In this document: one piece after another, positions 289 to 10,299 of the stretch
Position numbering within the stretch: the stretch's first letter is position 1
Layout: each line of letters opens with the position of its first letter
NCBI GenBank assembly: GCA_903929895.1
Contig: CAIYWM010000492.1
Coordinates: forward strand, 1 to 10,449
DNA from: an uncultured Alphaproteobacteria bacterium
GTDB lineage: Bacteria; Pseudomonadota; Alphaproteobacteria; Reyranellales; Reyranellaceae
Reading direction: 5' to 3'
DNA: 10,449 bases
The notes under the pieces: model-generated
What the model was told of the DNA's origin: nothing
The model's database searches: none
What the model saw: only the letters and a program-made list of their open reading frames with translations
Made by a program: the position numbers and the translations under genes

Positions 289-558
289 TCAGCGCGTGCT
301 GTCGTCGAACTCCGGATGACGGCGCACATAGGCAACGACGAAGCTGCAGGCCGGGACGATCCTCAAACCCTGCTTGCGGGTATCCTCCAGGGCGGCCTTC
401 ACGATCCGCGCACCGATACCCTTGCCTTCGTCTTCCGCGGGCACCTCGGTGTGGGTGAAGATTCGCGCGTCGCCCTGTTGGCGATAGGCGGCAATCGCCA
501 GGCCGTGCTCGACCGGCAGCTCGTATCGCTGCTCGGCGGTGTTGTGCGTCACTGTCAT
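289..558 (-). CDS. Small GNAT-family N-acetyltransferase (COG2388 type)
   Basis: This 89-residue protein looks like the compact one-domain GNAT acetyltransferases (Acetyltransf_CG / COG2388), which are predicted to move an acetyl group from acetyl-CoA to an unknown amine. The acetyl-CoA pyrophosphate-binding loop is visible as EGKGIGARIV (residues 44-53), preceded by the beta-strand ARIFTHTEVP (31-40). The family's terminal segment CSFVVAYVRRHPEF spans residues 71-84. The length is normal for this subfamily. The ATG at 558 has an AGGTGA Shine-Dalgarno-like sequence just upstream. The gene lies 51 nt after the solute-binding protein gene on the same strand and could be co-transcribed with it, but a possible stress promoter lies in that gap. 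Substrate unknown. Confidence 0.88.
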   Translation of the reverse strand: MTVTHNTAEQRYELPVEHGLAIAAYRQQGDARIFTHTEVPAEDEGKGIGARIVKAALEDTRKQGLRIVPACSFVVAYVRRHPEFDDSTR

Positions 559-580
559 CGTTCACCTGCCATGGGACGGC

Positions 581-606
581 AACGGCGGGAGTGGAAAGCC
601 GGTTGC
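581..606 (-). promoter_or_regulatory. Candidate ECF (EcfG-like) promoter, GCAAC-N17-CGTT
   Basis: On the minus strand GCAAC (606-602) is followed after 17 nt by CGTT (584-581), 23 nt before the GNAT start codon. It differs by one base from the established alphaproteobacterial GSR promoter GGAAC-N16/17-CGTT. The same variant with the same spacer occurs at two other places in the window. A caution: CGGCAACCGGC and GCCGTTGCCG here are near-complementary, so the two boxes may simply be arms of a small hairpin after the upstream stop codon. There is no T-run that would make it an intrinsic terminator. Confidence 0.35.
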
Positions 607-609
607 CGG

Positions 610-2181
610 CTAGCGATCGACTTCCCAGAACATCGGGTATGACGACTGGATCAGCCCCTTGAGATCGGAACGATAGCCGGCGGGAATGGTGAACTGCCCC
701 CACATGAGGGCTGGTACCAGCTCGTAGGCAATCACCTGGATCTCCGCGGCGATCTTCCTGCGCTCCTCGAGCGTCCCGGCGCGCGTGAAGGCCTTCAGCA
801 ACTCGGGAATACGGTTGTCGCAGGACCACCCGGGGAAGTCGTTGCAGGTCGCCGCGACGTAGAAATGCGTGAGCGGCGAGTACATATCCGTTCCGTTCGA
901 ATAGACCGGAAACATCGACCAGCCATCCTTCTTGGCGCGCCGCGCCAGGACGGTGGGCCAGTCGCGCGGCTGCTGCTCGACGGTGAAGCCCACGTCCTTC
1001 ATGTTCTGAACGAGAACGCGCGAGGCTGTCTGGCTGATCGACCCGGCCACTTCGAGCACGATCACCGGCTCACCCTTGTACCCGGAGGCCTTCAGTTCGG
1101 CGCGTGCGGCCGCAAGATCGAGCTTGGCGACACTGCCGCCTGCGTCGGTCGAGAACGGAGTGCCGCACATCCAGAATGAAGCGCAGTCCTTCGTCTGGTA
1201 CTTGTCGGGCACGCCGATCGCCGTCAGCGTCGCGTTCTGGTCGACGAGCTTCCACATCACCTTGCGCACCGCAGGATTGTCGAACGGCGGGGATGCGTGG
1301 TTGAGGCGGAAGTTGCCCTGGAACTGATGGAGGCCGCCCAGGCCGAGCAGCTTTACGGACTTTTCCTTTTCGAGCACCGACAGCATGTCGAACGGAAGGT
1401 ACTGCATGTAGTCGATCTCGCCGGCGATCAGCGCGTTCGCGCCCGTCGACTGGTCCGGCATCACGCGCAAGGTGAGCTGGTCGATCTTCACGTTCTTCCC
1501 GCCCGTCAGGAAGTCCGGCGCCTCCTTGCGAGGTACATAGGCGGCGTTGCGCTCGAGAATCATCGCGTTGCCGGGACGCCACTGATCCTTGAGGAAGCGG
1601 AACGGCCCCGAGCCGATCGGCTCGGGAATGCGCTGGTCCGCCGGGGTCGCGGCAAGACGGGCCGGCATCATCACCGGCAGCGGTGCGTTGGGCTTGCCCA
1701 GGACCTCGAGCAGCAGGGGGAATGGCTGTTTCAGCACGAACTTGATGGTTTTCGGGTTCGTCCCTTCCAGCGAGGCCGTATCTGCCATCAGCATCTTGCC
1801 CAGGGGATCGCGCACCGACCAGCGCTTGAGCGAGGCCACGCAATCCTCGGCCGTCACCGGGTTGCCGTCATGCCACTTCAGCCCGTCCCGCAGGACGAAC
1901 GTCCAGGTCAGCTTGTCGGGGCTGCTGTCATAGCTCTCGACCATCTGCGGCTTGATCTCGCCCTTGTCGTTCATCGCAAAGAGCGTGTCGAAGACGTGGG
2001 TGCCGAACGTGCGGGTGATCGCGGCTGTTGTCGCGTGCGGATCGAGGATCGTCACCTCGGATTCGAGGACGACCGTCAGTCCCTTCGCCGCCCGCGCCTC
2101 GCGCGGCCGAATCAAAGAAGCGCTCGCCAGGGCGACACCGCCTGCCAAAGCCGTCCGACGCCCCAACCCGATGCTACGCAT
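610..2181 (-). CDS. ABC transporter substrate-binding protein, family 5 (peptide/nickel type)
   Basis: This 523-residue exported protein fits the family-5 extracellular solute-binding proteins (SBP_bac_5, DppA/OppA-like), periplasmic receptors for peptides and other solutes. An N-terminal signal of about 32 residues contains GRRTALAGG and an ARA-A cleavage region; the paired arginines suggest possible Tat export. Typical landmarks follow: LDPHATT near residue 47, LRDGLKWHDGNPVTAEDC around 97-114, IGSGPFRF around 188-195, and DNPAVRKVMW in the second lobe. An AAGGGA sequence precedes the ATG by 10 nt. No permease or ATPase genes adjoin it in this window, so it looks like an orphan receptor or its partners lie elsewhere. 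The ligand cannot be told from sequence. Confidence 0.92.
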   Translation of the reverse strand: MRSIGLGRRTALAGGVALASASLIRPREARAAKGLTVVLESEVTILDPHATTAAITRTFGTHVFDTLFAMNDKGEIKPQMVESYDSSPDKLTWTFVLRDGLKWHDGNPVTAEDCVASLKRWSVRDPLGKMLMADTASLEGTNPKTIKFVLKQPFPLLLEVLGKPNAPLPVMMPARLAATPADQRIPEPIGSGPFRFLKDQWRPGNAMILERNAAYVPRKEAPDFLTGGKNVKIDQLTLRVMPDQSTGANALIAGEIDYMQYLPFDMLSVLEKEKSVKLLGLGGLHQFQGNFRLNHASPPFDNPAVRKVMWKLVDQNATLTAIGVPDKYQTKDCASFWMCGTPFSTDAGGSVAKLDLAAARAELKASGYKGEPVIVLEVAGSISQTASRVLVQNMKDVGFTVEQQPRDWPTVLARRAKKDGWSMFPVYSNGTDMYSPLTHFYVAATCNDFPGWSCDNRIPELLKAFTRAGTLEERRKIAAEIQVIAYELVPALMWGQFTIPAGYRSDLKGLIQSSYPMFWEVDR

Positions 2182-2240
2182 GTGAATTCTTTCCCTTCAT
2201 CCCGAAGCAACACCGTAGCGTTCTTTGGTGCCAAACGAAA

Positions 2241-2274
2241 CGGGCCGGCCTTCCCTTTCAGGAAGGCCGGCCCG
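2241..2274 (-). terminator. Rho-independent terminator of the CsbD cassette
   Basis: A perfect 14-bp inverted repeat (CGGGCCGGCCTTCC, 2241-2254, and its complement, 2261-2274) encloses a 6-nt loop. Read on the minus strand it is followed by TTTCGTTT, a broken U-tract; on the plus strand no T-run follows. It lies 27 nt after the stop of the exported protein gene (2302-2907) and 59 nt before the start of the solute-binding protein gene, so it separates the two transcription units. Confidence 0.85.
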
Positions 2275-2301
2275 CAATTCGCTGGCCGGAAGACGCGACC
2301 G

Positions 2302-2907
2302 TCACGACGGCGACAGAAGACGGCAGGTTACCCGATCGACGAACGTGGACACCGGCGGCCCATAGACTGGGACACCCCAGCGCTCGCCGGGGCCTGCCGG
2401 GGAAAGGACGACGCGCGTGTCCTGGACCGGACGCCCACCATTGGTGAAGGTACAGCCGACGACCGGATCGACGACGTTTCCGCTGTTGTTGGTGACGTAC
2501 AGTACTGACAACCAGTTCTGCTGCGGCACGGCCTGCAGCCATGGACTGTCGATCACCACTGCAGGCACCGTCGGGCCAACGGTGATGGGAACGGTACCCA
2601 TCAGGTTGCCCCGCGGCCGTTGCACGACGACCTGCATCCCGACCGACTGGCTATTGGGGTCGAATGCCTTGTCGGCAGGGGTCGCCGGCATCGCCGCCTG
2701 CTGCTGCGGGGTCTGATTGTCCTTGCTGACGTTCTCGGGCGTCCAGACCTTGCCGGTCCGCTCGTCCTTGAACTGGGTGACGCCGTTGGCCGACACGCCG
2801 GCGCCAATCATGCCGGGCGTCTGGGCCGGCACCTGGGCAAGCGCCGGGCTTACCGTGGCGAACGCCAGAGCGCCGGCCACAGCCGTGAAAGTGACGTAAC
2901 AGTTCAT
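2302..2907 (-). CDS. Exported protein of unknown function, partner of CsbD-like gene
   Basis: I do not recognise the family. The 201-residue product has a clear Sec signal peptide: a hydrophobic core at about residues 5-20 and PALA-Q cleavage near 24/25. A low-complexity Gln/Pro/Ala linker spans about 60-80, followed by a beta-rich part with VPITVGPTVPAVVID, WLSVLYVTNNSGN and PVYGPP. Only two cysteines remain in the mature protein (Cys152 and Cys195), so one disulfide is possible. The start at ATG 2907 is set by GAGGAG at 2915-2920, 7 nt upstream. This Shine-Dalgarno overlaps the stop codon of the CsbD-like gene, indicating translational coupling. The frame stays open further upstream, but that stretch only shadows the CsbD gene. 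A periplasmic or surface role in stress is inferred from context alone. Confidence 0.8.
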   Translation of the reverse strand: MNCYVTFTAVAGALAFATVSPALAQVPAQTPGMIGAGVSANGVTQFKDERTGKVWTPENVSKDNQTPQQQAAMPATPADKAFDPNSQSVGMQVVVQRPRGNLMGTVPITVGPTVPAVVIDSPWLQAVPQQNWLSVLYVTNNSGNVVDPVVGCTFTNGGRPVQDTRVVLSPAGPGERWGVPVYGPPVSTFVDRVTCRLLSPS

Positions 2908-2918
2908 CTTCGTGCTCC

Positions 2919-3233
2919 TCACATGTCCTTCAGGCGGCTCTTTTCCCAGGCGCCGACCTGCGCCTCGGCCGCTTCCCGTGAAATGCCGTAGCGCGTCTGG
3001 ATCTTGCCCACGAGCTGGTCGCGGCGGCCCTCGATGGCCAACAGGTCGTCGTCGGTGAGTTCTCCCCACTGCTCTTTCACGGCGCCCTTGGTCTGGCTCC
3101 AGCTGCCCTTGACCTTCTCCCACATGGTCTGCGCGTCATTCTGGGTCGTGTTGGTGATCTGGGCTCCGGCGACGAGCGGCACGGAAGCGACGGCGACGGC
3201 GACACACGCCGCGAGGATGGCGATGGAACGCAT
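2919..3233 (-). CDS. Exported CsbD-domain stress protein
   Basis: The 104-residue product carries an N-terminal signal peptide (hydrophobic residues 4-20, AGA-Q cleavage near 24/25). A CsbD-type domain follows at about residues 37-100, with the diagnostic MWEKVKGSWSQTKGAVKEQW, then GELTDDDLLAIEGRRDQLVG and KIQTRYGISREAAEAQV. CsbD proteins are abundant small stress proteins of unclear biochemical role. Many are cytosolic and about 60-70 residues long, so export to the periplasm is the notable feature here. Start at ATG 3233 has a good AGGAG 8 nt upstream; a longer in-frame ATG at 3290 lacks one. The downstream exported protein follows after 11 nt. A stress-sigma-like promoter sits 28 nt before the start. 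Confidence 0.9.
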   Translation of the reverse strand: MRSIAILAACVAVAVASVPLVAGAQITNTTQNDAQTMWEKVKGSWSQTKGAVKEQWGELTDDDLLAIEGRRDQLVGKIQTRYGISREAAEAQVGAWEKSRLKDM

Positions 3234-3560: not shown

Positions 3561-6128
3561 TCAAGCAACCTTTCGCACGCTGTGGTCGAGGGCCTGCTGC
3601 AAGTCGATTGATGAGTAGGGCTTCGAGATGAATTGCATTCCCTCGCCCTGTATCCCGGGGCGCCCATAGCCGCTGGCGATCACGACCGGCAACGAGGGGA
3701 ACTGTTCCCGCACCTTGACTGCGAGCTCCTCGCCACTCATCCCCGGCAAGCCCACGTCCGTCACCAGAAGGTCATAGCCTCTTTCGCGGGCAAGGAGTTC
3801 CAGGGCAGCCTCGCCGCTGCCGACCCCGGCCACCGAACACCCGAGCCGCTCCAGCATGTCGGTGGTCGACATGCGGAGCAGGACCTCGTCCTCCACCAGC
3901 AGGACCCGCCTCGGGCGGCCCTCCGCCGCCGCCAGCGGCGCAGACTCGTCCGTTGAAGCATTTGGGTGCGGTGCGAGTATGGGCCGCCGGTTCGCCAGAA
4001 CGCTGCGCAGCTTCGTCGAAAGGGCCTCGCTGCTGTAGGGCTTGGCTATCATGGGATAGCCCGACCGCGTGTGGTCAGGGATCAGGCCGCGGGCGAACCC
4101 GGAGGTCAGCAGCACGGCAATGCCGGGCCTCAGGCGCTGGGCCAGCTGTGCAAGCTCGACGGCGGTTATGACGCCCGGCATCACGATGTCCGTGAACAGG
4201 AGATCGAACGCCGAATCCCTTTCCAGGATCGCCGCCGCCACGTCGGGATCCTCCGCAGCCTCCACGCGATAGCCCCACCCCGTCAACATGTCGACGACGG
4301 CGCGCCTGACATCTTCGCTGTCTTCCACGACGAGGATTCGCTCGCTGCCGCTCACGGCATTGACCGGGTCAGCTGACTCCTCGACGACCGGATCCTCGGT
4401 GCGCGGCAGATAGAGCTTGATGCTGGTCCCCTGCCCGATCGCGCTGTCGATCCGGATATGGCCGTTCGACTGGCGCACGAAGCCATAGACCATGCTGAGG
4501 CCAAGCCCCGTGCCTTTGCCGTCACCCTTGGTCGTAAAGAACGGATCGAACGCCTGCGCCGCGACCTCGGGCGGCATGCCGATGCCGGTGTCGCTCACGT
4601 CGACCAGGACATAGGGGCCGGGCGTCACGTCGGGGTGCAGCGCTGCATAACGCCGGTCGAGCGTCGCATTGGATACGTCGACGCGCACGGTGCCGCCGTC
4701 CGGCATGGCATCGCGAGCGTTGATTGCGAGATTCAGGATGGCGTTCTCGAGCTGGCCGGCATCGATCCTGGCATTCCAGGGATGGTCCGCCAGCCTGAGC
4801 TCGATGGCGATGCGCTCGCCCAACGAATGACGCATCAGGTCGGCGAGATCGCCCACGAGCCTGGCGATATTCGTGGGCTGCGGCGTCAGCGGTTGCCGGC
4901 GGGCAAAGGCCAGGAGCTGCTGTGTCAGGCGCGCGCCGCGATCCGCCGCCGCGGTCGCGCTCTGCACGCGCGACAGCATCGCGACATTGTCGTCGGCCTC
5001 GCCCTTGAGCAGGTCGAGGTTGGCCCGGATGACCTGAAGGATGTTGTTGAAGTCGTGGGCCATGCCGCCGGTGAGCTGGCCGGTGGCCTCCATCTTCTGA
5101 CCCTGCCGAAGGGCGGCTTCGTCGCGCAGCTTCTCTGTGATGTCGACGCACCGCACGACCGCGCCACCGCCCGACATTTCACCCCGGTAGATCTCGTAAT
5201 CCCGCCCGTCATGCGCTACCCGGACGACGGCGGGGCCCTTGGAGGGAGAAGCACGGAGACCGAGCGGCTGGAGCAGAGCCCGCGTCGCAGGCGAGCGGTC
5301 GGACAGGAGCTGATCCAGCGTCGGCGGTGCCTGCTTGCCCGGCTCCCATTGCGCCAGCCTGGCGAACGCCTCGTTCCACGCCACCACGCTGCGCTCGCCA
5401 TCGATCACGAAGATGGGGTCGCGCAGGCTCTCCAGGGTCGCCTGCAAAAGGCGTGACCGGCCGGCGAGAGCATGCTGGCTGCGCTCCAGGCGCCCGGCAC
5501 CATGCACGACGATGTAGATGCCCGCGATCAGGCAGATGAATGCCCCGCCCATCACGAGCAGGCCGGCTCTGTCGGCCTGCTCCTGCTCCGATCGCAGGGC
5601 CGTCAGGCGCCGCGCCAGTAGCAGCCTCTGTCCCTCGACGAGCGCATCACCGAGCAACCTGACCTGGCTCAGCATCGCCCGCCCTGCGCCTGTCCGATCG
5701 AGCGCGAGGGCCGCGTCTCGACCGTTGAGCTGGTAGGTCCCGACCGTGGTGTTCATCTGGTCGAATTTCTGCGTCGTGACGTCGCGGAACTCGTGGAACT
5801 GGCGGGTCGTGTCGGGATCGCCTGATACCGCGGCTTCGAGCTGACGCATGCTCGATTCGATCCTGAGGCGCGCGCGCTCATAGGGTTCCAGCCTTGTGAC
5901 GTCGCCGGTCAGCAGGAAACCGCGCAGCCCGATCTCGGCGTCCTGCACAGCGATCACTGTCTCGCGCATCAACGCCATAGTCTCGTAGTTGGCCACTACC
6001 AGGCGCTGCTGGCGCGCCGCCGACTTGGAATGCGTCCATGCCAGCATGAGACCCGTCGCGATCAGCACGGCGAGAGTGATGCCCGCGACGACACCGGTCG
6101 AGCGCGCCGATCGCAGGAGGCTAGGCAT
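3561..6128 (-). CDS. Membrane hybrid histidine kinase, CHASE3-PAS-HisKA-HATPase-REC-REC
   Basis: This 855-residue sensor kinase is anchored by two helices (about 12-31 and 188-209). They flank a CHASE3-type extracytoplasmic domain with the typical motif DAEIGLRGFLLTGD (63-76). A PAS domain follows (about 225-335, LESLRDPIFVIDGE), then a HisKA domain with GGMAHDFNNIL (phospho-acceptor His358) and an intact ATPase domain: N-box NLAINARDAM (466-475), G1 DTGIGM (513-518), G2 GTGLGL (539-544). Two receiver domains end the protein, with acceptors Asp647 (FTDIVMPG) and Asp791 (VTDVGLPG) and conserved Lys696 and Lys836. The gene start overlaps the end of the preceding kinase gene by 8 nt (ATGCCTAG), implying translational coupling. 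As last gene of the phyR operon it may feed phosphate into, or drain it from, the GSR pathway; that link is inferred. Confidence 0.93.
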   Translation of the reverse strand: MPSLLRSARSTGVVAGITLAVLIATGLMLAWTHSKSAARQQRLVVANYETMALMRETVIAVQDAEIGLRGFLLTGDVTRLEPYERARLRIESSMRQLEAAVSGDPDTTRQFHEFRDVTTQKFDQMNTTVGTYQLNGRDAALALDRTGAGRAMLSQVRLLGDALVEGQRLLLARRLTALRSEQEQADRAGLLVMGGAFICLIAGIYIVVHGAGRLERSQHALAGRSRLLQATLESLRDPIFVIDGERSVVAWNEAFARLAQWEPGKQAPPTLDQLLSDRSPATRALLQPLGLRASPSKGPAVVRVAHDGRDYEIYRGEMSGGGAVVRCVDITEKLRDEAALRQGQKMEATGQLTGGMAHDFNNILQVIRANLDLLKGEADDNVAMLSRVQSATAAADRGARLTQQLLAFARRQPLTPQPTNIARLVGDLADLMRHSLGERIAIELRLADHPWNARIDAGQLENAILNLAINARDAMPDGGTVRVDVSNATLDRRYAALHPDVTPGPYVLVDVSDTGIGMPPEVAAQAFDPFFTTKGDGKGTGLGLSMVYGFVRQSNGHIRIDSAIGQGTSIKLYLPRTEDPVVEESADPVNAVSGSERILVVEDSEDVRRAVVDMLTGWGYRVEAAEDPDVAAAILERDSAFDLLFTDIVMPGVITAVELAQLAQRLRPGIAVLLTSGFARGLIPDHTRSGYPMIAKPYSSEALSTKLRSVLANRRPILAPHPNASTDESAPLAAAEGRPRRVLLVEDEVLLRMSTTDMLERLGCSVAGVGSGEAALELLARERGYDLLVTDVGLPGMSGEELAVKVREQFPSLPVVIASGYGRPGIQGEGMQFISKPYSSIDLQQALDHSVRKVA

Positions 6129-7848
6129 TCACGGGCTCATCCGCGGCAGGCGTCGGAAAGACGACGATGACCCTGTCGCCGCCCTCGGGCTTGCGCTCGA
6201 TGGTAACCTCGCCGCCCAGCTGCATGGCAAGTCCGCGGATCAGGGTAAGGGCGAAGCCGCCCTTACCGTCGGGGATCGACGCCCCGTCATCCCGGGCAAC
6301 GCCATTGTCTTCGATGACGAGCTGGACCTCCCCGCCGCGCTCGCTTGTCTCGATGCGAATTTCCGGTGTGGCCGCCGCACTGAAGTCATGGGTGAGCGCA
6401 ATGCTCACGGCCTCCGTCACGATCAGGCCAATCGGAATGGCGGTGTCGGGGCCGACCGCCATGATCGGCGCACGGATATGATAGCGCGGCGTCACCTGGC
6501 CGCCCCTCGTACGTCCGACCGAGATCTGCCGCACGAGATCGCTGATGAACTGCTGGAAGTCGACCAGCGACCAGCTCGACCGCTCGTAGAGATGACGGTG
6601 CAGGATCGACAGAGTGAGAACCCGGTTCTGCGCATCGCCGAAGAAGCGACGGATGCGCGGCGACCTGATCTCGCCGGCCTGGAGGTTCAGCAGGCTCGAT
6701 ATCATCTGCAGGTTGTTCTTAACCCGATGATGAATCTCGCGGAGCATGTGGTCGCGCTGCTCCAGGTTGGCGCGCAGGGCCGCCTCGCGACTGGCGATGG
6801 CCGCCGCCATGGCCGTCACGCCCGCCCCGACCGAGGCCATCTCGGGGGACCAGAGCCGTGGCGGCGACAAGGTGATGTTTTCGCCGCGCGCGACCTTGTC
6901 GGCAAAATCCTGGATATAGCGAAGAGGCCGGACGCATAGGCGATCTGCACCGAACCAGATCACCAGCAGCACGATGATCGACGCCAGCACGACGAGGCAG
7001 AAGCCCGCCCAGGCGCCGGCAGAAGCCAGGGGGGTGTCGCTGACCGGTGCGGACACCACGACGAAAAGCGCATGACCACCAACCGGCTGGACCCGGAATT
7101 CGTAAAGCGAACCATCCTGACCGAAGTCCGAGAATCCGGTCTGGGCGCCTGTCAGTGCCTCCTTCAGGCGTGCCGGCACCGGTAGACGCCGCATCACCAT
7201 CACATCGCCCCCAACGGCAGCCCCGGAACGGTCGACCACGGCCACCGCCGTACCGCCGGAGGCTTCCCCTTGGGCGGCCACCTGCGCCAGCGCACTGAGC
7301 GTGACGCCCACCGCACACATGCCGCGGAACGTGCCGTCACGAATCACGGGAACGGCAATGGGAATGATGGCATGCGGGGCAATCCGGCTCGCGATCGTAT
7401 CGCCGATGACAACGCCCCTGGCGGACCGAGCCTTCTCGAAGACGTCTCGGTCGGCGAATGATATGCCGACGGCCTTGGGATCACTGGCGCATCGCGCAAT
7501 GCCCTGCTCGTCCGTCACCAGCGCGCTTGAATACTGACCCGGGTAGGCGGCAAGCAACTTCGACAGGTAGCCCCCGCATCGACCTGCGGTGGCCGTCGAC
7601 GGCTCGGCCGAAGCGCTCTGCTCGGCGGATTCCTCAGCGCACGCGGCCGTCAGCAGGCGCCGCGAGGCTTCGAAAAGGCCGGCATAGCGCGCGGCCGCGA
7701 GATCGGACAGAGATCCCAGCGCGGCAGCCCGCTGCGAGACCACCGACTCCTCCTGGAGTTTGGCTTGCCAAGCCGCCAGTCCGACGACGGGCAGCAAGGC
7801 CAGCGCAACGAGCGTGACGAGCTTGGAGCGAAGCGACCATCGCACCAC
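6121..7848 (-). CDS. Membrane sensor kinase of HisKA_2 type next to phyR, with degenerate ATPase
   Basis: The 575-residue protein has a membrane helix (about 9-27), a dCache-like extracytoplasmic sensor (about 28-277, including GISFADRDVFEKAR and cysteines 70, 91, 120 and 178), a second helix (about 281-300) and a HAMP linker. The HisKA_2 dimerisation domain reads LREIHHRVKNNLQMISSLLN (369-388; acceptor His373/374). Kinases of this type are the usual phosphodonors of PhyR. The ATP-binding domain is unusual. The N-box, normally NELVTNALKH, reads TEAVSIALTH (478-487). G1 is DNGVA in place of DxGxG (514-518). G2 is GGFAL in place of GxGL (530-534). It may be inactive or weak as a kinase. Start GTG 7848 (or 7845) lies 14 nt after the phyR stop; the open frame upstream only shadows phyR. 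Confidence 0.87.
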   Translation of the reverse strand: MVRWSLRSKLVTLVALALLPVVGLAAWQAKLQEESVVSQRAAALGSLSDLAAARYAGLFEASRRLLTAACAEESAEQSASAEPSTATAGRCGGYLSKLLAAYPGQYSSALVTDEQGIARCASDPKAVGISFADRDVFEKARSARGVVIGDTIASRIAPHAIIPIAVPVIRDGTFRGMCAVGVTLSALAQVAAQGEASGGTAVAVVDRSGAAVGGDVMVMRRLPVPARLKEALTGAQTGFSDFGQDGSLYEFRVQPVGGHALFVVVSAPVSDTPLASAGAWAGFCLVVLASIIVLLVIWFGADRLCVRPLRYIQDFADKVARGENITLSPPRLWSPEMASVGAGVTAMAAAIASREAALRANLEQRDHMLREIHHRVKNNLQMISSLLNLQAGEIRSPRIRRFFGDAQNRVLTLSILHRHLYERSSWSLVDFQQFISDLVRQISVGRTRGGQVTPRYHIRAPIMAVGPDTAIPIGLIVTEAVSIALTHDFSAAATPEIRIETSERGGEVQLVIEDNGVARDDGASIPDGKGGFALTLIRGLAMQLGGEVTIERKPEGGDRVIVVFPTPAADEPVNA

Positions 7849-7862
7849 GACCCGTCTCGGTC

Positions 7863-8666
7863 TCAGATCGATACAGTGTCGAGCGCCTGCGCGATCGCCG
7901 CACGAAGAAGGTCTGGATCGAAAGGCTTGGAGATCACGAAGGCGGGCTCGATCTGCTTGCCCGTCAACAGACGCTCCGGGAAGCCTGTCACGAAGATCAC
8001 CGGAACGGACATCGACTTCATGATCTGGTTCACGGCCGAGATCCCGCTGTCGGAGCCGCGAAGCTGGATGTCGGCCAACACCAGATGAGGTGAATGCTTC
8101 TTGGCAAGCTCGATGGCAGCCTTTTCGGTCGCCGCGATGCCCACGACCTCGTGGCCGGCGTTGCGCACGATGTCGGCGACGTCGAGGGCGATGACGGCCT
8201 CGTCTTCGATGACGAGAATGCGAACCGAGGCGACTCGCTGGAGCTCCCGGCGCGCTTCCTCCAGGCTGCGCTCGGCTGCATCGATGCTGATCCCCAGGAT
8301 ATGCGCGGCGTTGCTGACGGTGAAACCTTCCAGCACGGTCAACAACAGGACCTGACGCTGCATCGGCGCCATTTCCGTAAGCGATTCCTTCAAGCGTTCG
8401 CGGACACCTTCGCCGCCGCTCGCGGCCTCGTCCATGTCGCCGAACGGCTGACGCAGACGGTGAAACAGCGCAAATACGCCGAGCTTCGTATCCTCGGCCT
8501 CGGCAATGAGTTCCGGCTGCCGAACCGCCACCTCGGCGCAGAGGCGGACCCATTCGTCGCCCTGCTGCTGCGAGCCGGTAACGGCCCGAGCGTACCGACG
8601 CAGGAACGGCAGCGTCCTCGTGATCGCCTCGGACACCTTCTTCGAAGCTACCTGCTCTTCAGCCAC
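7863..8666 (-). CDS. phyR: PhyR-type response regulator / anti-anti-sigma factor
   Basis: PhyR controls the alphaproteobacterial general stress response. When its receiver is phosphorylated, the N-terminal sigma-like domain mimics EcfG and captures the anti-sigma NepR. The protein is 267 residues. The sigma-like domain covers about 11-145: LPFLRRYARAVTGSQQQGD at 19-37, and MAPMQRQVLLLTVLEGFTV in the sigma4-like part. The receiver covers about 148-265, with Glu154/Asp155, phospho-acceptor Asp199 (LVLADIQL), Thr227, Lys247 (ISKPF) and the PhyR signature PERLLTG (230-236). The start at GTG 8666 is preferred because AGGGAG lies 6 nt upstream; GTG 8684 or ATG 8681 are in-frame alternatives that would add 5-6 residues but lack such a site. 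It is the first gene of a three-gene operon with two kinases. Confidence 0.95.
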   Translation of the reverse strand: MAEEQVASKKVSEAITRTLPFLRRYARAVTGSQQQGDEWVRLCAEVAVRQPELIAEAEDTKLGVFALFHRLRQPFGDMDEAASGGEGVRERLKESLTEMAPMQRQVLLLTVLEGFTVSNAAHILGISIDAAERSLEEARRELQRVASVRILVIEDEAVIALDVADIVRNAGHEVVGIAATEKAAIELAKKHSPHLVLADIQLRGSDSGISAVNQIMKSMSVPVIFVTGFPERLLTGKQIEPAFVISKPFDPDLLRAAIAQALDTVSI

Positions 8667-8672
8667 GTCGCT

Positions 8673-8678
8673 CTCCCT
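8673..8678 (-). promoter_or_regulatory. Ribosome-binding site deciding the phyR start
   Basis: AGGGAG on the minus strand, 6 nt before GTG 8666. It would lie inside the coding sequence if translation began at GTG 8684 or ATG 8681, neither of which has a purine-rich site at normal distance. Confidence 0.55.
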
Positions 8679-8697
8679 CATCACGCCAAAATCGTGT

Positions 8698-8999: not shown

Positions 9000-9024
9000 A
9001 ACGCATGGCGACCGTGCGGGTTCC
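9000..9024 (-). promoter_or_regulatory. EcfG (GSR) promoter, perfect GGAAC-N16-CGTT
   Basis: On the minus strand GGAAC (9024-9020), a 16-nt spacer and CGTT (9003-9000) match the established EcfG/SigT/RpoE2 promoter consensus exactly. The element drives leftward and ends 32 nt before the 27-aa gene. It lies in the divergent intergenic region upstream of the first sigma gene, so polymerase binding here could also affect that gene's expression. Confidence 0.8.
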
Positions 9025-9132: not shown

Positions 9133-9597
9133 ATGAAGAAAGAGATCGTCGCTCTCCTGCCTGATTTGCGTGCGTTTGCACGTTTCATGTGTCGTGAGCG
9201 CGAGGCGGCAGACGATCTCGTTCAGAACACCATTCTGGCCGCCCTCGACAAGCAAACCCAGTTTACACCAGGCACCAATCTCAAGGGCTGGCTTTTCACC
9301 ATCATGCGCAATCGCTTCTACTCGGATCTCAGGACGCAGCGTCGCCGTCCGTTGACGATCGACAACGACGCCGCAACGCCCTTGGCCGCAGTGGACAATC
9401 CCGAAGCCACGATGGCGCTGAAGGAACTCACCTCGGAACTGTGGAAGCTCAACCCGCAATCGCGAGAAGCCCTGGTGCTGATCGGCGCGGGCGGCTTTTC
9501 CTACGAGGAAGCGGCCGGGCTTTGCGGTTGTTCGATAGGAACCCTGAAAGCGCGCGTATCCCGAGCTCGCAAGTATCTTTCAGACAAGCTCCAATAG
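9133..9597 (+). CDS. ECF sigma factor, EcfG-like (ECF15), short form
   Basis: This 154-residue sigma factor has region 2 at about residues 5-70 (LPDLRAFAR, ADDLVQNTILAALDK, FTPGTNLKGWLFTIMRN). Region 4 covers about 97-152, with the EcfG signature LIGAGGFSYEEAAGLCGCSIGT (two overlapping blocks, 116-137) and KARVSRARKYL. EcfG factors direct RNA polymerase to general-stress promoters and are held inactive by NepR. The start ATG 9133 follows GGAAGGGG with almost no spacer, which is suboptimal. An in-frame ATG at 8953 would add 60 residues that resemble no sigma factor and run across the opposing promoter, so it is rejected. The protein is somewhat shorter than typical EcfG at both ends. It lies 120 nt before a second ECF sigma gene. 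Confidence 0.9.
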   Translation: MKKEIVALLPDLRAFARFMCREREAADDLVQNTILAALDKQTQFTPGTNLKGWLFTIMRNRFYSDLRTQRRRPLTIDNDAATPLAAVDNPEATMALKELTSELWKLNPQSREALVLIGAGGFSYEEAAGLCGCSIGTLKARVSRARKYLSDKLQ

Positions 9598-9717
9598 CGT
9601 CGAGTGGACGATTTGCTCTGCCATTACAACGGCTTGCAGGATTCCAAAATGCGTGTGTAACCAATTCAGGTCTCAGTCATTCATTCTCCACAGGACGCAA
9701 CTTTCTGGAGATCGCCA

Positions 9718-10299
9718 ATGAGCACGCAGACCAAGCAGGATGACGGTACTCGGGACTTCCACGAACAACTCAAGACGATCCTGCCCCGCCTGCGCATCTA
9801 CGCCCTGTCCCTGACGCGCGACCGGGACTCGGCGGACGACCTTGTCCACGACACGGTGATCAAGGCGCTGACGGGTCGCAACAGCTTCCAGCCCGGCACC
9901 AACCTCGCCGCCTGGCTGTTTCGTATTCAGCGCAACGAATTCATTTCGGGCCTGCGCCGCCGCCGTCCGACCGTGCCGGTGGACACCGCCATTGCGGAAT
10001 CGCTCTCCCATCCCCCCCATCAGGACAGCGGCCTGGTTATGCGCGAGTTCATGTCTGCATTCGGCAAGCTTGCAGCGACGCAACGCGAGGCCTTGCTTCT
10101 GGCAGTCCTCGAAGGGCTGCCGTATGAGACGATCGCCGAACATACCGGCGTATCGGTCGGCACGGTCAAGAGCCGCATCTCTCGCGCTCGCGACACCCTC
10201 GAGCGCCTCCTGCTGGAAGGCGAGACCCGGCGCCCACCCGAGTCCGGGCGGACGTCCATCGCCCTCCGCGACGACGAATCGGCCGTCGCAACTCGCTAA
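9718..10299 (+). CDS. ECF sigma factor, second EcfG-like paralogue
   Basis: The 193-residue protein has sigma region 2 at about residues 19-82 (ILPRLRIYALSLTRDRDSAD, DLVHDTVIKAL, FQPGTNLAAWLFRIQRNEF). Region 4 covers about 112-166 (LAATQREALLLAVLEGLPYE, IAEHTGVSVGTVKSRISRAR). The shared PGTNL.AWLF and linker pattern place it close to the neighbouring EcfG-like factor and to the sigma-like half of PhyR. Region 4 lacks the GAGGFSYEEAA signature and carries AVLEGLPYETIA instead, so promoter preference may differ. A polar, Arg/Asp-rich tail of about 27 residues extends past region 4. The start ATG 9718 has GGAG 7 nt upstream. No adjacent anti-sigma gene is seen between the two sigma genes. Confidence 0.92.
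   Translation: MSTQTKQDDGTRDFHEQLKTILPRLRIYALSLTRDRDSADDLVHDTVIKALTGRNSFQPGTNLAAWLFRIQRNEFISGLRRRRPTVPVDTAIAESLSHPPHQDSGLVMREFMSAFGKLAATQREALLLAVLEGLPYETIAEHTGVSVGTVKSRISRARDTLERLLLEGETRRPPESGRTSIALRDDESAVATR

Follow-up and report, generated by a model that had tools for sequence, protein, structure and literature searches.

What does a sensor kinase do beside phyR when the asparagine that should bind Mg2+ in its ATP site has been replaced? The question is posed by a stretch of 10,449 nucleotides from an uncultured member of the Reyranellaceae (contig CAIYWM010000492.1, assembly GCA_903929895.1), termed the window here, in which the gene at 6121..7848 (-) encodes a PhyT/PhyK-like degenerate sensor kinase of 575 amino acids (dCache, transmembrane segment, linker, HisKA_2 and HATPase_c), denoted the window sensor. 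From comparison of sequences, the protein is probably a PhyT/PhyK-type membrane sensor devoid of Mg2+-ATP chemistry that acts as a dimeric histidine phosphotransferase and as an anchor for PhyR. The loss of the Asn and its fixation, the conservation of the dimerization and histidine phosphotransfer (DHp) domain, the operon-like structure, a conserved EcfG-type box and the presence of the other parts can be read directly from the sequences.

The ATP site was inspected in an alignment of the window sensor with 115 sequences longer than 540 amino acids drawn from the best 120 of 2273 matches, five of 540 amino acids or fewer having been dropped; the counts out of 116 refer to these listed matches. 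The roles of the residues concerned (the Mg2+-binding Asn and the G1, G2 and G3 contacts) are those that we assume from general knowledge of GHKL ATPases, and proteins in which the Mg2+-binding Asn of the N box (position 483) is replaced are termed dead-site. The N box of the window sensor reads TEAVSIALTH (residues 478-487; 6388..6417 (-)), with Ile-483 (6400-6402 (-)) in place of the Asn. Residue 483 is Ile in 84 sequences, Ser in 16, Met in seven, Gly in four, Ala in three and Leu in two, and the Asn expected of an active HWE/HisKA_2 kinase occurs in 0/116. Residues T478, E479, D514 and N515 are invariant (116/116), as are residues 367-385 which include His374. The G1 box DNGVA (residues 514-518; 6295..6309 (-)) retains its Asp and has lost the second Gly, which is present at position 518 in 18/116 sequences. 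In the G2 region GGFALT (residues 530-535; 6244..6261 (-)) residue 533 is Gly in 48/116. On this alignment, positions 518 and 533 are variable within the dead-site clade. The original prediction that both N-box asparagines, the second Gly of G1 and the G2 glycine pattern had been lost is therefore correct in part: the second Asn has gone, but the first position is Thr in 9/9 intact relatives of the family; the G1 Gly is missing from the window sensor, but not as a fixed trait; and the G2 pattern, GGFAL at residues 530-534, is only partly eroded.

The remainder of the protein is in good order. The undamaged reading frame that had been predicted is present as an open frame of 575 amino acids at 7848..6121(-) with a GTG start, and the phospho-acceptor segment, likewise described as intact, is found as HHRVKNNLQ. 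This segment lies in the DHp domain (residues 360-444; 6517..6771 (-)), the most constrained part of the protein, in which His374 (6727..6729 (-)) is the predicted phospho-acceptor and aligns with His341 of Sphingomonas melonis PhyT, the second His of HHRVKNN. The dCache-type sensor domain occupies residues 34-276 (7021..7749 (-)). HisKA_2 (PF07568) is matched at 87.8 bits against a cut-off of 22.3, which places the protein in the family. The HATPase_c match of 35.7 bits is still above the Pfam cut-off of 26.4, so that the change is masked in automatic annotation. Structure matches of the window sensor are dominated by the sensor domain, and the comparison of the catalytic and ATP-binding (CA) domain consists of two rows for EL346, an active kinase and the one relative with a solved structure that was reached by sequence. 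EL346 has Ser at the first N-box position. As to whether the altered residues might be standard in a subfamily of proven activity, EL346 keeps the second Asn; no systematic search for active kinases that lack it was made.

The substitutions might reflect a decaying gene or assembly artefacts, as the window derives from a metagenome-assembled genome of 1031 contigs that is 84% complete with 6.85% contamination. However, the dead site recurs in 47 further distinct loci, including those of the isolates Reyranella aquatilis, R. massiliensis and R. soli, and the ratio of nonsynonymous to synonymous substitution rates (dN/dS) is well below 1 in DHp and most of CA. Decay and assembly error are ruled out by these independent genomes, and the probability of this explanation is negligible. 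Nei-Gojobori estimates from 34 genes (446 pairs with a proportion of synonymous differences, pS, below 0.6) gave dN/dS values of 0.05 for DHp, 0.26 for CA, 0.06 for the G2 helix, 0.11 for the N-box surroundings, 0.55 for the ATP lid and 0.45 for the sensor, which are rough because dS is ~0.7-1.0. Purifying selection is strong on DHp and on the G2 helix of CA, and loose on the ATP lid. These patterns indicate that the CA domain is retained as a fold. The original view that the change was selected is upheld by the fixation of the loss across the clade together with the values for DHp and the G2 helix; decay is further contradicted because nine related loci in the family keep the Asn, two of them encoding full-length sensors right after phyR.

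These intact relatives emerged when 41 family genomes were searched for HisKA_2; 36 of them matched and 30 loci were returned: the window and 20 others are dead-site, and nine retain the Asn. The full-length sensors L208 (582 amino acids) and L211 (559 amino acids) share with the window sensor its length class, its sensor and its place after phyR, and L211 is 42% identical to it over 564 columns, sensor included. In contrast, their N box is TEAVTNAFRH or TEAVGNAFRH, G1 is DNGVG, G2 with LGLTL is intact, and no hybrid kinase is encoded directly downstream. L207 also is intact but has lost its start at a contig end, and phyR is therefore out of view. L201-L206 have intact ATP motifs in shorter kinases of 290-367 amino acids, which adjoin phyR instead of the long form with dCache. 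Since the genomes of L205 and L206 (G181 and G176) bear the same genus code as that of the window, the dead site is the mark of a gene clade and not strictly of a genus; G176 possesses a dead-site cassette as well as a short intact one. The HisKA_2 search returned no strong sensor of this type from G168, G169 and G175, which carry the same genus code. Besides residue 483, the dead-site and intact groups differ at 488 (A to D/N), 518, 519, 532 (L to F), 533 and 558, with most of the core unchanged. In a tree of 50 rows from which the trait columns were excluded, 18 dead-site rows form a clade (100/99) within a family clade of 27 rows (98/98), in which the nine remaining rows are intact. Support is weak (81/88, 87/93) for the branches that separate the dead-site clade from the intact groups. 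At least three changes between Asn and another residue occur on the tree in all, and the tree places the loss in the family on a single branch that is separate from the loss in sphingomonad PhyT.

Might the window sensor nonetheless be a working kinase that binds Mg2+-ATP unusually, for example through E479 and D514? The invariance of D514, N515 and E479 and the HATPase_c score favor that possibility. However, position 483 has drifted, with I, S, M, G, A, L, C or R found there, and Gly-518 of G1 and Thr-558 of G3 vary in dead-site rows although both are kept in 9/9 intact relatives. The ATP lid is variable in both groups alike and is uninformative on kinase activity. Residual kinase activity is accordingly viewed as very unlikely, and the substitutions make it highly probable that autokinase activity is absent.

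If the protein does not phosphorylate itself, it may still carry phosphate. PhyT of S. melonis transfers phosphate from SdrG onto the conserved His and on to PhyR, and holds PhyR at the membrane (PMC5898713). By analogy, phosphotransfer from the window sensor to PhyR is probable: the DHp His374 would be phosphorylated by a receiver domain and hand the phosphoryl group to PhyR, which would then release the stress sigma factor from NepR, with the CA domain remaining as a scaffold. Alternatively, the window sensor might carry no phosphate and serve only as a brake, either as a scaffold that, under control of its sensor, keeps PhyR in the unphosphorylated form at the membrane or as a PhyR phosphatase. 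Phosphatase activity in such proteins requires DHp but not ATP hydrolysis, as is generally known. Furthermore, PhyT, an essential negative regulator, also sequesters PhyR (PMC5898713). Set against this alternative, the invariance of residues 367-385 seems to exceed the needs of a pure scaffold, and PhyR phosphatase activity of PhyT was not seen in vitro (PMC5898713). The brake-only role therefore is considered unlikely. Among the roles originally suggested, histidine phosphotransfer and scaffolding are favored because the studied PhyT has the same architecture and has lost the same Asn, whereas that of a phosphatase is not (PMC5898713).

Where would the phosphate originate? The original prediction was silent on a gene for a hybrid kinase of 855 amino acids (CHASE3-PAS-HisKA-HATPase-REC-REC; 3561..6128 (-)) whose start codon overlaps the end of the window sensor gene by 8 nucleotides. 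When family loci were reduced by identity of the last 150 residues, 58 distinct loci remained including the window: 48 dead-site, nine intact and one (L036) ending inside the gene. The hybrid kinase is directly downstream in 47/48 dead-site loci which, with the window included, is 47/47 of those with enough flank; the 48th, L034, has 448 nucleotides of flank that match the first 151 residues of the hybrid. An in-frame start at the 8-nucleotide overlap is present in 45 of the 47 hybrids (43 ATG, one GTG and one TTG), and the remaining two start at 0 and +1. Residues H358, N470, D513, G541, D647 and D791 are conserved in 47/47 hybrids. The hybrid is downstream in 0/9 intact loci, with the flank of L205 extending for just 826 nucleotides, and was not found directly downstream of phyR-neighborhood kinases outside the family, where L079, L087 and L090 have hybrid-like matches elsewhere in the stretch. 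Full-length orthologues (65% or more; E 1e-60) occur in three of 17 whole genomes (G000, G055 and G176), all of which carry a dead-site sensor. Among the other 14 genomes, 11 have partial matches only (34-54%) and three have none. Among the open-access titles and abstract openings listed for Reyranella PhyR, which led to work on thiocyanate-degrading microbiomes, and for PhyR hybrid kinases and phosphotransferases, no description of this operon was seen.

Phosphate might reach His374 from one of two candidate donors: straight from the receivers of the hybrid kinase, or from an SdrG-like single-domain regulator of the same genome. The chance that the hybrid kinase is the donor is about even. 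The corresponding one-operon relay would pass phosphate from His358 of the hybrid kinase through the Asp of its receiver and then His374 of the window sensor to PhyR. More tentatively, a single change in the Reyranella lineage, in which the ATP site of a PhyK-type kinase was lost when a HisKA hybrid arrived behind it with the 8-nucleotide overlap, might have completed this four-step relay. To our knowledge, no clean before-and-after pair of a kinase turning phosphotransferase has been described. Within this one family, the same sensor is found at the same locus in both intact and dead-site relatives, and the change is accompanied by gain of the overlapping hybrid kinase; thus the order of events, and whether a new donor freed the old ATP site from selection, become directly testable. 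If the relay is correct, two sensors (CHASE3-PAS and dCache) would govern one general stress response, with the former kinase gating the flow.

Several points weigh against this interpretation. Some nucleotide binding may remain because D514, N515 and E479 are invariant. The PhyK equivalog NF051872 scores 209.8 bits (E 6.4e-62), well short of its cut-off of 750. The motif of the SdrG-like protein is PYVFASG rather than PFxFATG. Because the dead-site rows form one clade, hybrid gain and Asn loss are one coincidence of events, not 47: the link is one branch and one evolutionary event. Finally, the Rec domain of the Caulobacter hybrid-type kinase CC2874 is not needed for transfer to MrrA (PMC5964349), a precedent that favors a route through the single-domain regulator over direct transfer from receiver to His374.

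The surrounding genes supply the other elements of the circuit. The phyR gene (7863..8684 (-); NF006623, 298.8 bits against a cut-off of 240) lies upstream of the window sensor gene with a gap of 14 nucleotides. The phyR operon is preceded by an EcfG-type promoter-like box, GGAAC-N16-CGTT (9000..9024 (-)). The consensus GGAAC-N15-18-CGTT, which we take to be that of the EcfG literature, occurs upstream of phyR on the same strand in 31/32 loci, where single-base shuffles would give 0.54, and is absent from the opposite strand (0/32 loci); its position varies from 90 to 848 nucleotides ahead of the assumed phyR start. A single box in the window is at chance level (0.30 expected; 53/200 shuffles), and only the conservation of the box is evidential. 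Two adjacent genes for extracytoplasmic function (ECF) sigma factors (9133..9597 (+), the start codon being a chosen one, and 9718..10299 (+)) span 9133-10299, divergent from phyR, and the same arrangement is seen in those Reyranella loci for which upstream flank is available. The window gave no match to nepR; the sole NepR match of the genome is at the edge of another contig (C855), and NepR could not be placed beside a sigma gene. The SdrG-like regulator, whose best PDB match is SdrG, was found by the receiver profile A1; matches to A1 in 38/41 genomes are not a count of SdrG as the profile also matches PhyR and other receivers. A search of the window's genome for the PFxFATG DNA pattern with one mismatch gave four matches, none in a receiver, and missed the SdrG-like gene. 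The genome encodes two further HisKA_2 kinases with intact N boxes and Asn for the G1 Asp. At 292-3230 the window encodes CsbD, a hypothetical protein, a family 5 solute-binding protein and GNAT, a synteny shared by many Reyranella loci downstream of the hybrid kinase gene; CsbD is likewise encoded after the intact sensor in L207, L208 and L211.

Outside the family, the PhyR sigma-like domain was searched in 144 genomes of the class and 40 places were examined. Full PhyR was present in 23/40, one of which is Reyranella, and 20 had a HisKA_2/HWE kinase in the stretch. Among 21 outside-family phyR-neighborhood kinases in the tree set, several of which are HWE kinases and not necessarily orthologues, the second N-box Asn is absent in two (L078 and L093) and the first position is Asn in just one. 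The exact tree positions of L078 and L093 are unsure because of long branches. L078 is a Sphingomonas protein whose 120 listed homologues, the best of 3624, include 'PhyP [Sphingomonas sp. Fr1]' (P0197); all of these 120 have T at the first N-box position and retain the E, with L (118) or M (2) instead of the Asn. L076 and L096 keep the N-box Asn and lack the G1 Asp, another mode of ATP-site erosion. G055 has FATGUY-like receivers (L118/L132, L124/L136), one sharing its frame with an HWE kinase and one a single-domain protein beside an HWE kinase, the best PDB matches of the latter being 2lpm and SdrG 5ieb.

Dead-site kinases of the PhyT type are already known from sphingomonads, and PhyT (formerly PhyP) of S. 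melonis Fr1 is the closest model for the window sensor. Both are encoded at phyR loci and have a membrane anchor, a periplasmic sensor and, with a degenerate ATPase domain, an HRxxN-containing DHp (HHRVKNN). The N box of PhyT, TETIELAMNC, similarly retains TE and has lost the Mg2+ Asn. However, PhyT lacks the G1 Asp and G2 whereas the window sensor keeps D514, and common descent of the degenerate state was not recovered on the tree, in which the loss is separate and the sphingomonad branch long. In L078, the one Sphingomonas locus of PhyT type examined, no hybrid kinase was matched and the sensor gene is divergent from phyR. Thus, the finding is of a known kind, but its separate origin and the overlapping hybrid kinase are new. 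Caulobacter PhyK also is similar: the NCBIfam PhyK model matches residues 15-565 of the window sensor, and PhyK has a phosphotransferase role (PMC5964349). In that organism, CC2874, a HisKA kinase with a C-terminal receiver, feeds MrrA, which gives phosphate to PhyK and LovK (PMC5964349). The likeness to the relay proposed here is that such a kinase feeds a PhyK-type phosphotransferase; the difference is that MrrA joins the parts in Caulobacter, whereas in the window the gene for the hybrid kinase overlaps that for the putative phosphotransferase.
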